Virus record (IMG/VR): IMGVR_UViG_3300042516_001499
Coordinates: 1 to 36,149 of that record
Source: a virus
DNA length: 36,149 nt
Strand: one strand, 5' to 3'
Below are positions 20,345 through 30,002 of this stretch, one piece after another (within the stretch, counting starts at the first letter, position 1; each line of letters starts with the position of its first letter). A program made the translations under genes and the position numbers. The notes under the pieces were generated by a model. It did no database searches and was not told the DNA's origin. It was given only the letters and a program-made list of their open reading frames with translations.

Positions 20345-20554
20345 TCATCTATTCGATTGACTCATATTCGAAAGTAATAATGCTAATTTGTCATCATTCT
20401 TGACGCCAGCATTAAAAAGCAATTGATAGCAATTTAGCACTACGTCAAGACCTTTTGTGGTATTGCCGGCGCCGGCCGCCAATAATATTGATAGTTGTTT
20501 TTCCGTCAATTTTCTTTGGAACTTTTTCGGCGCTAATGTGGGCGGTTTTGGCAT
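20345..20554 (-). CDS. Small protein of unknown function, 69 aa
   Basis: I chose the ATG at 20554 (MPKPPTLAPKKFQRKLTEKQ). The frame is open further upstream to a TTG at 20623, which would add a DVHDVHDVH stretch encoded by the 9-base repeats; that extension is probably untranslated. The product has a basic, Pro-rich start and helical segments (LSILLAAGAGN, LDVVLNCYQLLFNAGV). No recognised domain. A weak leftward promoter lies at 20656-20684. Being a single leftward gene beside the repeat array, it could encode the protein that binds the array; that is inference. The ribosome site is poor. Confidence 0.45.
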   Translation of the reverse strand: MPKPPTLAPKKFQRKLTEKQLSILLAAGAGNTTKGLDVVLNCYQLLFNAGVKNDDKLALLLSNMSQSNR

Positions 20555-20570: not shown

Positions 20571-20597
20571 TGCACGTCATGCACGTCATGCACGTCA
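20571..20597. repeat. Nonamer array, group A: three direct copies
   Basis: TGCACGTCA occurs at 20571, 20580 and 20589 as perfect head-to-tail units. They lie just upstream of the ATG of the small leftward gene, within its probable 5' leader. Confidence 0.88.
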
Positions 20598-20655
20598 TGC
20601 GTTTTTAATCGCTCGCTCCCCAAATGTTACACGGCGCGGCCGATCAAATTTAACA

Positions 20656-20684
20656 CTTATATGGTTTTTAGCCAACCTTGAAAA
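20656..20684 (-). promoter_or_regulatory. Candidate leftward sigma70 promoter
   Basis: On the minus strand TTTTCA (20684-20679) and TATAAG (20661-20656) are 17 bases apart: -10 matches 5 of 6, -35 matches 4 of 6. It would transcribe the small gene at 20345-20554 through repeat group A. Confidence 0.45.
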
Positions 20685-20688
20685 TTAA

Positions 20689-20706
20689 TGACGTGCATGA
20701 CTTGCA
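20689..20706. repeat. Nonamer array, group B: two inverted-orientation copies
   Basis: TGACGTGCA at 20689 is the complement of the group A unit; TGACTTGCA at 20698 is the same with one change. They adjoin the -35 of the candidate leftward promoter. Confidence 0.82.
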
Positions 20707-20740
20707 TAGGGCCAAAAGCCGCGCCCAGCCTAGGAAAACA

Positions 20741-20794
20741 TGCACGTCATTTGTCCCAAAATCATGACGTGCATGATGACGTGCATGACGTGCA
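20741..20794. repeat. Nonamer array, groups C and D: four copies
   Basis: One TGCACGTCA at 20741-20749, then TGACGTGCA at 20765, 20777 and 20786. The last two are contiguous and the first is offset by a 3-base TGA insertion. Together with groups A and B this makes nine copies in 224 bases. Confidence 0.85.
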
Positions 20795-20835
20795 TCGTAA
20801 GGCATTTTGATACATACCTGACTAATTTAATCAAG

Positions 20836-20878
20836 AATGTAAAAAAATTCTTTACATTTAGAATTTCGTCGCTATAAT
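20836..20878 (+). promoter_or_regulatory. Near-consensus rightward early promoter with overlapping operator
   Basis: TTTACA at 20851-20856 and TATAAT at 20873-20878 with a 16-base spacer: -35 is 5 of 6, -10 is perfect. The inverted repeat AATGTAAA (20836-20843) / TTTACATT (20851-20858) covers the -35, and a second nested repeat AATTCT...AGAATT overlaps it. This is a strong host-RNA-polymerase promoter that is likely repressed or controlled by a dimeric protein. It drives the first early gene group. Confidence 0.82.
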
Positions 20879-21423: not shown

Positions 21424-22068
21424 ATGAAAATCTCAGTAACTTCAAAACTTGACGGCGTGCGCTCTTGGTCTTTGCAAGCGCTTGAAACTTGCCCAGGATC
21501 AATCGCGGCGCCTGGCGTGCTCGTCGACGCGTGCGCAGGTTGCTACGCCACTACCGGAAACTATCGCTTTGAGAATGTCAAAGCGCCGCGGCGTCACAAT
21601 AAGGAAGACTGGCAGCGCATGGCATGGGCGGATGACATGGTCAATGAATTGTCAAAAGATACGCATTTTCGATGGTTCGATTCAGGCGATATGTATACCT
21701 TGGCGCTAGCGGAAAAGATTCTCGAAGTAATGAAGCGCACGCCATGGGTGAAACATTGGCTACCGACGCGCATGCATAAGTTTCCAAAATTCCGTCAAGT
21801 GTTAACGGAAATGCAAGCGCTCAAGAATGTTTCCGTGCGCTTTTCTAGCGATTCAGTCACGGGTCAATATACCAAGGGTTTGCACGGTAGCGTCATCATA
21901 CCGACGCCGGATGACGTCAAGCGCGGGATGACATTGTGCGGCGCTTATGACAATGGCGGCGCTTGTGGCCCTTGCCGCGCCTGTTATGACAAGCGCGTCA
22001 AGGTCATTGCGTACCCTGCGCACGGCGTCAAAATGAACAAGGTTATCAAAATCAAATTGGCCGCTTAA
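21424..22068 (+). CDS. GP88-family protein with seven ordered cysteines, 214 aa
   Basis: The pattern SKL...ETCPGS...DACAGCYA at residues 7-42, the central RWFDSGDM (83-90) and HWLPTRMHKF (111-120), and a C-terminal cluster C172, C181-GP-C184-RA-C187 match the phage Gene Product 88 family. No reaction is established for that family. C23, C37 and C40 at the start plus the C-terminal quartet could hold iron-sulfur clusters or zinc, and the layout recalls radical-enzyme-like proteins. The ATG at 21424 has GGGAG upstream. It is the longest protein of the first early operon, so it probably acts on host or phage nucleic acid or metabolism early in infection. Confidence 0.75.
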   Translation: MKISVTSKLDGVRSWSLQALETCPGSIAAPGVLVDACAGCYATTGNYRFENVKAPRRHNKEDWQRMAWADDMVNELSKDTHFRWFDSGDMYTLALAEKILEVMKRTPWVKHWLPTRMHKFPKFRQVLTEMQALKNVSVRFSSDSVTGQYTKGLHGSVIIPTPDDVKRGMTLCGAYDNGGACGPCRACYDKRVKVIAYPAHGVKMNKVIKIKLAA

Positions 22069-23430: not shown

Positions 23431-23468
23431 CCCTGCGCACGGAACCAAGGGCCGGCGCAGGGTTTTTT
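23431..23468 (+). terminator. Rho-independent terminator of first early operon
   Basis: CCCTGCGC (23431-23438) pairs perfectly with GCGCAGGG (23455-23462), followed by six T. The loop of 16 bases is long, but the stem is GC-rich. It ends rightward early transcription; its T tract touches the stop codon of the opposing primase gene. A related unit (GCCGGCGCAGGGTTTT) is repeated at about 23488. Confidence 0.8.
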
Positions 23469-25768
23469 CATTTCACCCGCACCAAAGCCGGCGCAGGGTT
23501 TTCCTCTACCATGCGTCGGAGTTCGGCCTTCGGCCGGTCTACCATGTCCGGCGCGCAGAATAGTTGCTTTTTGCTTGTATGCTCGCGCGTATTGACGCGG
23601 CCTAGGTCAACCCAGCCGGCTTCACTGAGCGCGTGCAAAAGCGCCACCGGCGGGATTTTTACGCCGGCCGGCGCGCCGCCTGCTAACCGATCGCAAAGCG
23701 AATAGAACGGCGACGCGACGACGCCGGCGGCAAACTCGCCGATTCGGCCGGTGATGAGTTCGACTAGGTAGGACTCGGCCGTGCTGCGGCCGTGATCGAT
23801 CATAATCGCCTTGGCTTCTGTCATCGGCGGCGCGGCGCCTGGGTTAAACGCAGACACGTCGCGATCGTGCAACCAAGACGCAACGGCCGCAAACCCGCCG
23901 CCGTGCTTGTACCACGTCCAAAGCCGCCGCGCGTCGGCTTCCGGTAGCCGGCCGGCGTCAGACCATAGACAGAACCATCGCCGGTCATTAGTTGGAATCG
24001 AGATGGCGGCCCGCTCGTTAGTAAACGCCACCACCAGGACGCGGTTGGGGGCCATGTACGGGTGCAAACCCTTGCGATTGATCTGTAAGAACTCAGGCGG
24101 AGCCGCGATAATAGGCTTTAGCGCATTCTCAAGCGCGCGCCGATCGCGGGCTTCGGATTGACGCAGCTCGGCGATCTCCAAGACTTCACACTCGAGCGCA
24201 TAGCCCCATTGGGACGTGATTTCTTCGTTACGCACCAAGCTACAGTTGGTTTTCGAGTCGCCGCCAATGGCCCAGAAAAACGGCGCGAGCATCGTATCTT
24301 TACCGCTGCCAGGTTGACCGCCTACCAGTACCGCGTGATTGATCTTGACCGACGGGTTTTGTACCTTGTAGGCCAGGACGTTCAAAAGATGCTCGCGCTC
24401 GTCCTCGTTCGGCACCATGCGCTCGACATGCGCGAGCCATGGGGACGCGTCACCAGGCACTGGCACCGGCCGCGCGTTGCGCCAGCGGTTGCCGTACTGC
24501 GCGCCGTTGCGCTCGACAACCACGCTCTCGCCGGCCGCATACGTGATGCCGGTTAAGGCCAGCGCGCCCTTCGCGTCGCGGTTCTCATCAAAGCAAACGG
24601 ACGCTTCGATCTTGCGGCCATTGTGAATCGACGTGCAGTTGATATGCCGGTAGACCGCGTTGAACGCACTGCGCGTTTTCTCAAGACGTGTGATCAGGTC
24701 AAAATAAGCCTCGTCCTCGATCACGTAGGCGTAGCGCTCATACCAGCCTTCGCGCTCGACGCGGGCCGACTGCCGGCGGTCGGTGGCCTCGACGATCTCG
24801 GACGCAACATCGGGAAATTCCTCGGTCGGCTCGAGCTGGGCCAAGGCGGTATGCATGGTCGACGCGATCAGCTCATCCCGCACGCCTGGCGGACGCGCAG
24901 GCCCGCCGTTAAGGGCTACCCATCTCAGGAAATCAACAGACGTCAAATCGATACAGTGTGAGTGCAGGCAGCAATACGCCCGCGAGGACGGGTTATAGCG
25001 GCCTTCGGGGTTGCCGTCGGTGTGCTGGCCATTGTTCGGGCAAATGACGCCGGCCCAGCCCTCAGCATTGGGTTTAGTTAACACCAGTCCGTTGTCGCCC
25101 AGCCATGCGAAGACGTCGTCGCCACCATCGTCGGCGAGTTTGATCGGCGAGACGCCAAGCGACTCCACCGGCACCGGCTCGACGTTTAATGCCGTGCAGA
25201 TTTCGTCCAGCGTGTACTCGCGCGTCGGGTCGAACTCGATCAACTGCGCGGCAAAGTTATTGCGGCCGGGTTTTAGGTTAATCGAGCCGGGCAGGCGGAA
25301 GTTGCGCACCGGATTGCCGGCGCCTGGGTCGCTATAGCCGGCCTTGATGATCGCCTTGATCGCGGCGGCGTAGTCGGCCTTCGTGGGCTGCTCGGAGAAC
25401 GCGTAGCCCCACTGGAACGAGCCGGCCGACGTCTCGATGATCCACGTCGGCGGCAGCGCCGGTTTGTTGGGTGCCTTTACAGGGTCGCCGACGTCGTCCA
25501 AGACCATCACCAAGACGAACTCGCAATTCGCGGCGCTGGCGGATGGTTTGCCGTCCGTGAAGCGGTCGACAATGAAGGACGCCGTGTTGCCGTACCATGC
25601 TTCGCCATCGCGGCGCTTGTGGTCGGGGTAGAACGCAGGCCAGACGGCTTTTACGGCCCCGTCGGCGTGCAGTTCGATTTGTCCGTTTTTGAGTTTTGGC
25701 TTCTGCCGTACGATGAGTGCCGTTTCGCCTTCAGGCGCTAGTTTTGTAATATACTCAAGGAACTCCAA
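23468..25768 (-). CDS. Primase-helicase (RepB-type primase plus DUF5906/D5-like helicase), 766 aa
   Basis: The start is TTG at 25768 with TGGAG 7 bases upstream. The N-terminal half has TWIIETSAGSFQWGYAF and RNFRLPGSINLKPGRNNF, typical of RepB-like or archaeal/eukaryotic-type primase domains of mobile elements. A Cys/His module (VICPNNGQHTDGN, AYCCLHSHC) at about residues 232-265 suggests a zinc site. The C-terminal helicase has Walker A GGQPGSGKDT (residues 483-492, K490) and the DUF5906-like motif NRVLVVAFTNERAAI. It should prime and unwind DNA at the fork. Two bodies in one chain is common in small phages lacking a DnaB-type helicase. The polymerase gene lies immediately upstream. Confidence 0.82.
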   Translation of the reverse strand: MEFLEYITKLAPEGETALIVRQKPKLKNGQIELHADGAVKAVWPAFYPDHKRRDGEAWYGNTASFIVDRFTDGKPSASAANCEFVLVMVLDDVGDPVKAPNKPALPPTWIIETSAGSFQWGYAFSEQPTKADYAAAIKAIIKAGYSDPGAGNPVRNFRLPGSINLKPGRNNFAAQLIEFDPTREYTLDEICTALNVEPVPVESLGVSPIKLADDGGDDVFAWLGDNGLVLTKPNAEGWAGVICPNNGQHTDGNPEGRYNPSSRAYCCLHSHCIDLTSVDFLRWVALNGGPARPPGVRDELIASTMHTALAQLEPTEEFPDVASEIVEATDRRQSARVEREGWYERYAYVIEDEAYFDLITRLEKTRSAFNAVYRHINCTSIHNGRKIEASVCFDENRDAKGALALTGITYAAGESVVVERNGAQYGNRWRNARPVPVPGDASPWLAHVERMVPNEDEREHLLNVLAYKVQNPSVKINHAVLVGGQPGSGKDTMLAPFFWAIGGDSKTNCSLVRNEEITSQWGYALECEVLEIAELRQSEARDRRALENALKPIIAAPPEFLQINRKGLHPYMAPNRVLVVAFTNERAAISIPTNDRRWFCLWSDAGRLPEADARRLWTWYKHGGGFAAVASWLHDRDVSAFNPGAAPPMTEAKAIMIDHGRSTAESYLVELITGRIGEFAAGVVASPFYSLCDRLAGGAPAGVKIPPVALLHALSEAGWVDLGRVNTREHTSKKQLFCAPDMVDRPKAELRRMVEENPAPALVRVK

Positions 25769-29687: not shown

Positions 29688-30002
29688 ATGCGTGAATCCG
29701 AGGTTGAGAATTATCTGGTCTGGCTGGTCGAGACGTCTGGCGGCAAGGCATTCAAGTTCAAGTCGCCGAACCAGCGCGGCGTCGCCGACCGGATTGTTTG
29801 TATGCCCAACGGAGAGACGTGGTTTATCGAATTGAAACGCCCCAAGGGCGGGCGCTTGGCACCGTTGCAGGCGATCTTTCGTGACCAGGTAATCGCGCTA
29901 CAGCAACGCTATGCCCTACTAATAAGTAAATCGGAGATTGATACATGGCACCATATGTACCTCACGCGTTGTTCGACGAAATCATCCGGGTCTACGGATT
30001 GA
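29688..30002 (+). CDS. VRR-NUC domain nuclease, 104 aa
   Basis: MRESEVENYLVWLVETSGGK begins the standard VRR-NUC fold. NQRGVADRIVCMP gives D34, TWFIELKRPKG gives E48 and K50, and LAPLQ gives Q61, the expected PD-(D/E)XK-type active site. The family includes structure-specific (junction or flap) nucleases. An in-frame ATG at 29625 would add 21 residues lying in the promoter, so 29688 is preferred, which leaves essentially no 5' leader. The C-terminal 18 residues overlap the HTH gene in another frame. Likely partner of the SNF2-like helicase downstream. Confidence 0.85.
   Translation: MRESEVENYLVWLVETSGGKAFKFKSPNQRGVADRIVCMPNGETWFIELKRPKGGRLAPLQAIFRDQVIALQQRYALLISKSEIDTWHHMYLTRCSTKSSGSTD

Follow-up and report, generated by a model that had tools for sequence, protein, structure and literature searches.

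Introduction

The Rep protein of staphylococcal pathogenicity islands (SaPIs) recognises origin iterons via its C-terminal domain (PMC7581432), and the alpha protein of phage P4 uses a winged-helix domain to bind the repeats of its origin (PMC4234260, citing Yeo et al. 2002). An iteron origin read by the C-terminal or winged-helix domain of its initiator is therefore a mechanism already known from SaPI Rep and P4 alpha. Here we describe an array of nine 9-bp repeats (positions 20571-20794) in the IMG/VR virus record IMGVR_UViG_3300042516_001499, which was analysed over its whole stretch of 36,149 nt (the window), together with a 766-aa primase-helicase encoded on the minus strand at 23468..25768. 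We consider it highly probable that the array represents the iterons of a replication origin, that they are read by the C-terminal winged helix of the primase-helicase, and that residues 726-731 of the wing largely set the 9-bp word. New in comparison with the known systems are the covariation at the level of residues, its place in the wing, the scale of the turnover and the rigid layout of the array.

The SaPI Rep-ori pair (e.g., SaPI5 PriRep1) resembles the locus in that a AAA+/superfamily 3 (SF3)-type, D5-like helicase is fused to a primase and has a C-terminal domain for a multi-iteron origin, and the structures match. However, in SaPIs the origin immediately follows the rep gene, whereas the array in the window (20571-20794) is separated from the primase gene (23468-25768) by 2.7 kb and is located beside the packaging operon. 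SaPIs are islands, in contrast to the whole phages of aquatic bacteria considered here, and in the latter, one wing loop and the word covary over dozens of switches. By analogy, the window system would work like SaPI Rep-ori without being classed as a member. We do not claim SaPI or P4 membership, because the initiator gene is not adjacent to the origin and its primase appears to be of another type than that of P4. P4 alpha is likewise a fusion of primase, helicase and origin-binding parts with a winged helix on origin repeats, but its primase is of the TOPRIM type, whereas the N-terminus of the window protein weakly matches a RepB primase, which is like the archaeo-eukaryotic primases. The P4 origin repeats are also unlike the window array in unit length and layout.

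The NrS-1 primase-polymerase is the best structural match to the ATPase and C-terminal region of the window protein (6k9c, E 2e-14), but the NrS-1 genome has two copies of an 8-nt recognition sequence (PMC7102993) and no iteron array. In the phage-inducible chromosomal island-like element (PLE) satellites, origin specificity also changes under antagonism, as the origin-directed nuclease Odn of phage ICP1 selects for origin change (PMC8263062); there, however, the initiator is a RepA_N protein of unrelated fold, the change consists in exchanging complete modules of two types, and the iterons are about 30 bp long. Geminivirus iterons differ between close relatives as well and interact with their cognate Rep (PMC12548392), for which comparisons had led to a proposal of covarying residues (Arguello-Astorga and Ruiz-Medrano 2001, as summarised in PMC12548392). 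These plant single-stranded DNA viruses differ in using a rolling-circle HUH Rep without a winged helix and iterons of 5-6 nt.

The repeat array and its counterparts in relatives

Nine copies of TGACGTGCA or TGCACGTCA lie within 224 bp of the window (+ coordinate starts 20571, 20580, 20589, 20689, 20698, 20741, 20765, 20777 and 20786). Eight are exact, and the copy at 20698 (TGCAAGTCA) has one mismatch. All nine had been listed in a preliminary description of the window, and each was recovered at its position and on its strand, including the mismatched one. The whole 36-kb window contains eight exact copies, every one within 20571-20794, compared to a mean of 0.25 and a maximum of 3 in dinucleotide shuffles of the window (0/100 reached 8). 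The start-to-start spacings are 9, 9, 100, 9, 43, 24, 12 and 9 bp, and the copies form orientation blocks of three, two, one (inverted) and three. The first block consists of three head-to-tail iterons with TGACGTGCA on the minus strand (20571..20597), 17-43 nt upstream of the ATG (20554) of an open reading frame (ORF) for a 69-aa product. It is followed by two tandem iterons on the plus strand (20689..20706), the second of which is the mismatched copy, a single inverted iteron on the minus strand (20741..20749), one iteron on the plus strand (20765..20773) and two further tandem iterons on the same strand (20777..20794). Several short copies in a fixed geometry are typical of iteron-type origins. 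The proposal that the fixed 9-bp unit marks iterons at a candidate replication origin gained support from the relatives, in which such an array is found at the same place.

The relatives are uncultured phages known from fragmentary contigs, designated here by L numbers. Exact TGCACGTCATGCACGTCA was found in twelve IMG/VR contigs, all of which have arrays in both orientations and are similar to the window at the protein level; most are clearly syntenic with its packaging or replication genes. In three contigs (L009, L013 and L015) the array is present, the packaging module is different, and no homolog of the 69-aa product was detected. A search with the primase added 80 contigs. Most of these lack TGACGTGCA and carry another array of 9-bp units at the same place, the words being TTGCCCTCA, TTGCCCGCA, TGACCCACA, TTGTCCACA, TTGCTTACA, TTGCCTACA, TGACCATTT, TGACTAACA and further ones.

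The layout is retained when the word is replaced. The window, L019 and L023 agree to the base pair in spacings (9, 12, 24, 43, 9, 100, 9 and 9 bp, read in the reverse direction) and in orientation (<<< > << >>>), and L006, L017, L022, L026 and L027 come close to this layout, while the 9-mer differs among these phages. The three iterons upstream of the 69-aa ORF keep their position and orientation in relatives with other 9-mers. Alignments revealed that the flanks, including the DNA between the iterons, are conserved while every iteron changes. Six arrays (L018, L021, L066, L075, L086 and L093) contain two words and look like intermediates of a word change. Conservation of the motif among relatives, a check named in the preliminary description, thus held for layout and position and failed for the word itself, which varies together with the primase wing. 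Since the layout is conserved and the word changes with the wing, taking a lack of motif conservation as a refutation would mislead, and an exact search for the window's own word misses most relatives because the word changes.

A megablast search for near matches in annotated phage genomes yielded none, and by protein only the primase of MW202483, a distant complete circular genome, was recovered (49% identical). This genome has a 9-bp array (TTGGTAGTG) in the same genome part, and its wing is unrelated. The part of the literature that was searched contains no account of these phages.

In L025 (7180-7220), only two iterons are left, and they run straight into the middle of the 69-aa ORF; either the DNA between array and gene was deleted or the contig was misassembled. 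The word that is left, TGACCCACA, still agrees with the wing of this phage (HSRDFK).

Two other explanations of the repeats were rejected. They might be coding (HDVHDVH / DPHDPH in the leader frame), but are out of frame in L016, L017 and others. As for arm-type sites of a phage attachment site (attP), no integrase was found among the window proteins scanned in a non-exhaustive scan.

The primase wing covaries with the iteron word

The gene of the primase-helicase, the proposed initiator, lies 2.7 kb from the array in convergent orientation, with early genes between. Its product combines a DUF5906/SF3-like ATPase (PF19263, E 5.8e-11) with a weakly RepB-primase-like N-terminus (RepB_primase, E 0.0018, below its cut-off) and matches a PHROG DNA primase (E 1.2e-23). 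No TOPRIM match was detected in the protein, the RepB_primase match being the only one of this kind. A primase-like N-terminus fused to a superfamily 3/AAA+ ATPase, as in SF3/D5-type initiators, is therefore present, and the models predict the C-terminal winged-helix DNA-binding domain that also belongs to this type. The full-length AlphaFold2 model had a mean predicted local distance difference test score (pLDDT) of 69.9, with good values over the ATPase and the C-terminus; for the C-terminal 127 residues alone, pLDDT was 82.9, and at least 90 over most of the domain. Both models agree on the order H-H-H-beta-wing-beta-H (pLDDT 82-96 over most of the domain). The predicted domain spans residues about 663-756 (codons 23501..23782, minus strand). 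Residues 726-733 (NTREHTSK; codons 23570..23593, minus strand) were assigned to the wing loop because the hairpin strands are at 720-725 and 734-738. A Foldseek search with the whole model retrieved, besides the NrS-1 protein, SaPI5 PriRep1 with double-stranded DNA (E 1e-6), and E5 of monkeypox virus and PrimPol of African swine fever virus were also close.

When the primases were grouped by array, the segment after the motif ALLHALxEAGWxDxGR was found to change with the array class. NTRE(H/L/Y) pairs with TGACGTGCA, HSR(D/E)F with TGACCCACA, HS(A/S)EHQ with TGACCATTT, GTREHQ with TTGCCCGCA, both STREHQ and ATRELT with TTGCCCTCA, KSRDYD with TTGTCCACA, ASRAHS with TTGC(C/T)TACA, and MSREYT with TGACTAACA.

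To quantify this association, arrays were called by a script blind to the primase, and six clear arrays without an exact tandem pair were added by hand. Each 6-aa window of the primase was tested against iteron distance, with overall primase similarity (residues 1-650) regressed out. Among 70 phages, the strongest association was obtained for the window that begins with residue 726 (partial r 0.357; 0/2000 permutations, maximum 0.138), and the scan peak covers 723-726. Partial correlations on pairwise distances are rough, but the permutation controls and the held-out replication described below agree with them. In the same taxa, no window of another shared protein surpassed the primase segment (terminase best 0.317 vs. 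primase 0.476). When the word was predicted from phages less than 80% identical, window 726 came first among 760 windows (on average 1.59 mismatches, compared to 3.33 at random); with the cut-off set to 75%, it ranked second, behind window 723. A tree built from primase residues 1-640 requires a minimum of 35 changes of the word and 33 changes of the wing.

At the level of residues, Arg728 occurs with CA at iteron positions 8-9 in 66/66 phages and in 6/6 independent contrasts, and N, H or M at residue 726 is paired with GA at positions 2-3 in about eight contrasts, none being opposite. The primases of L031 and L033 are 99.2% identical over residues 1-720 (six differences) and have seven differences within 725-733; their iterons are TGACCATTT and TTGCCCTCA, respectively.

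The scan was repeated with a held-out set of 71 phages with called arrays, which came from two more scans and three genome-contig loci and had not been used before. The eight best windows all start at residues 721-728 (r 0.595; 0/2000 permutations), compared to 0.279 for the best window elsewhere. The Arg728-CA rule applied to 70 of the 71 phages, the exception being L357. L320-L323 (wing SSREFQ) have (A/C)TGCCGACA, as found with SSREHT in L047.

Features adjoining the array and alternative readings

Among all 60-bp stretches of the window, the one with the highest AT content (20807..20866, 80% AT) abuts the array and is a candidate DNA unwinding element. AT-rich DNA at this place had been noted before; it proved to be more pronounced than described, starting at 20807 and forming the maximum of the window. 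The adjacent unwinding element of an iteron-type origin is thus present by composition only. A top-1% AT-rich 60-bp stretch was found within or adjoining 36/36 well-called arrays vs. 20% of random placements, and we regard this association as supporting evidence only, because intergenic DNA is generally AT-rich. The rightward early promoter proposed earlier is also supported, by a consensus match of 11/12 (TTTACA-16-TATAAT, 20851..20878, plus strand); it adjoins the putative origin and lies outside the iterons.

Further short elements were observed around the arrays. A perfect inverted repeat, AATGTAAA-N7-TTTACATT, occurs once in the window (20836-20858), where it overlaps the -35 element of the early promoter, and similar palindromes adjoin the arrays of L021, L022, L029 and L091. 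It is a candidate operator for a separate repressor. In L005, L008, L010-L012, L014, L066, L075 and L086, the iteron clusters upstream of the 69-aa gene are separated by a conserved palindromic region (ACAGTACTGTATA, GTACATATACATGTAC), which looks like another operator. In L009, L013 and L015, whose arrays have the window's word, the iteron groups are interspersed with a perfect DnaA box (TTATCCACA) as well as the inverted repeat GTGAAACATGTTTCAC (about 2270-2420 in L015). In a subgroup of eight relatives (L048, L053, L058, L073, L074, L077, L079 and L080), short repeats of another class (up to 11 copies of ACTAACTTA/CTAACTTAG/AAGTTAGTG), distinct from the iterons, are located just beyond the iteron region.

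The position of the array between divergent transcription units, with iterons directly upstream of the 69-aa ORF and a good early promoter abutting them, raises the possibility that it serves mainly as a transcriptional operator, at which the primase-helicase, alone or within a complex, would repress the 69-aa gene and time the divergent early promoter. Replication would then start elsewhere. Autoregulation is indeed common among initiators of iteron replicons. However, the covarying protein is a fused primase-helicase and not a repressor, the 69-aa gene is absent beside the same array in L009, L013 and L015, the array always carries the AT-rich maximum, and no repeat copy flanks the promoter of the primase gene itself in the window. 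We therefore consider a mainly regulatory array unlikely.

The product of the 69-aa ORF (20345..20554, minus strand) had been suggested as the binding protein and, possibly as a ribbon-helix-helix protein, could act on the array as a cooperative master switch. The family (48 homologs; motif M..GRPASIRTRxFxRxL...AGxGDxSxGF) adjoins the array wherever it is present, and the protein is small and basic, with a beta-helix-helix look by eye. No match was found in Pfam or the PDB. Identical proteins occur beside TTGCCCTCA in L022 and TGACCCACA in L027/L028, while the window, L006, L011 and L067 share TGACGTGCA despite 69-aa proteins that are only 30-52% identical. The covariation of protein and operator expected of a ribbon-helix-helix system was not observed (partial r 0.000 overall, best window 0.18), and the gene is missing in the three contigs named above. 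This makes the 69-aa product a very improbable reader of the array; it is a conserved neighbour and not the specificity determinant.

The helix-turn-helix product of the gene at 29945, the other binder suggested, was found, among the taxa examined, to have a homolog in only four, too few relatives for a common binder. The first early rightward gene was rejected as well: the early operon is mosaic, and the same first gene (MTKFETKQ...) occurs in L019, L031, L042 and L046 beside different arrays. Another gene with the wing domain, e.g., for an origin-directed nuclease, was not found; the three short matches are incomplete primase copies at contig ends or broken ones. Within the early operon, 21424-22068 encodes a GP88-like protein (PF17338), whose slot is occupied in different phages by three different relatives (214, 227 or 250 aa).

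These phages are mosaic, and array and primase are only about 3-5 kb apart, so that the covariation could reflect hitch-hiking, with both exchanged together by recombination. This explanation has little probability left: primase residues 1-650 were regressed out, the intervening genes w22586 and w23054 show no association (partial r -0.11 and -0.15), L031 and L033 differ at only 6/720 residues outside the wing, and inter-iteron flanks are conserved while the iterons change. Binding by a host protein, so that the word follows the host, would suit the diversity of words across phages of many habitats and a genome scan that matched only phage contigs binned into draft genomes, but is hardly credible, as it predicts no special signal in one six-residue primase wing and the peak lies there in two independent sets.

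Discussion

The covariation in both sets points to the primase-helicase as the protein that reads the array, in line with the earlier suggestion that one protein binds the fixed 9-bp unit, which on sequence grounds appears sound. We infer physical binding, melting and origin firing at the array as follows. The winged-helix domain would bind the nine iterons, the choice of 9-mer being determined largely by wing loop residues 726-731. Once several subunits have assembled on the fixed array, they would open the neighbouring AT-rich DNA (20807-20866), load as a ring helicase and prime replication. Specificity would be changed by altering the wing together with every iteron, the array geometry being retained. 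Transcription of the 69-aa gene possibly starts from a promoter overlapped by the leader iterons, and binding at these three might, tentatively, also dampen this leftward gene.

Several observations weigh against this interpretation. In contrast to SaPIs, the putative origin and the gene of its initiator are 2.7 kb apart. The isolated C-terminal domain matched PDB structures only weakly (E > 0.05), mostly winged-helix regulators. GC skew shows only a slope change near 20 kb, which is also compatible with gene-strand bias. The array caller called no array in 36 held-out loci (71 distinct sets were called) and sometimes picked another repeat class. The rule for residue 726 is broken by four phages (L049, L066, L091 and L168), and the wing ASREYQ was found with three kinds of words (TAGCCAACA, CTGCCAACA and TGACC[CT]ACA). 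Because of ASREYQ and the exception L357 to the Arg728 rule, we regard the wing as the main but not the only determinant. In the held-out set, prediction from the nearest wing (1.65 mismatches) was on average no better than from the nearest whole primase (1.68; random 2.96), because most held-out clades never switched. Where they had switched, the wing was right and relatedness wrong: L231 and L240 are 89-94% identical to L085 (KSRRYD/CTGTCCACA), but have the wings ASRAYQ and ASRGYQ and the word TAGCCAACA.

Beyond the assignment of the origin and its reader, we think it fairly probable that these phages share one origin blueprint, made up of a rigid iteron geometry and an unwinding element, whose 9-bp word has been rewritten more than 30 times by concerted change of the six-residue wing and of every dispersed iteron, of which there are seven to ten. 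The main reader would be the wing, and not the recognition helix, with a residue-to-base code (e.g., Arg728-CA at positions 8-9). Diversifying selection would act on the identity of the origin and drive these changes, through escape from satellites or origin-directed nucleases, or through cross-replication and incompatibility in co-infection.

Studies of the specificity between origins and initiators usually deal with a single replicon, whereas well over 100 matched initiator-iteron sets are available here. Because these sets include pairs that are near-identical outside the wing and have different words, the recognition code of an SF3-type initiator and the route of a multi-site word change become directly testable. 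The results suggest that phage origins could be typed and sorted into compatibility groups from sequence. The rapid turnover may be driven by antagonists, satellites or co-infecting relatives.
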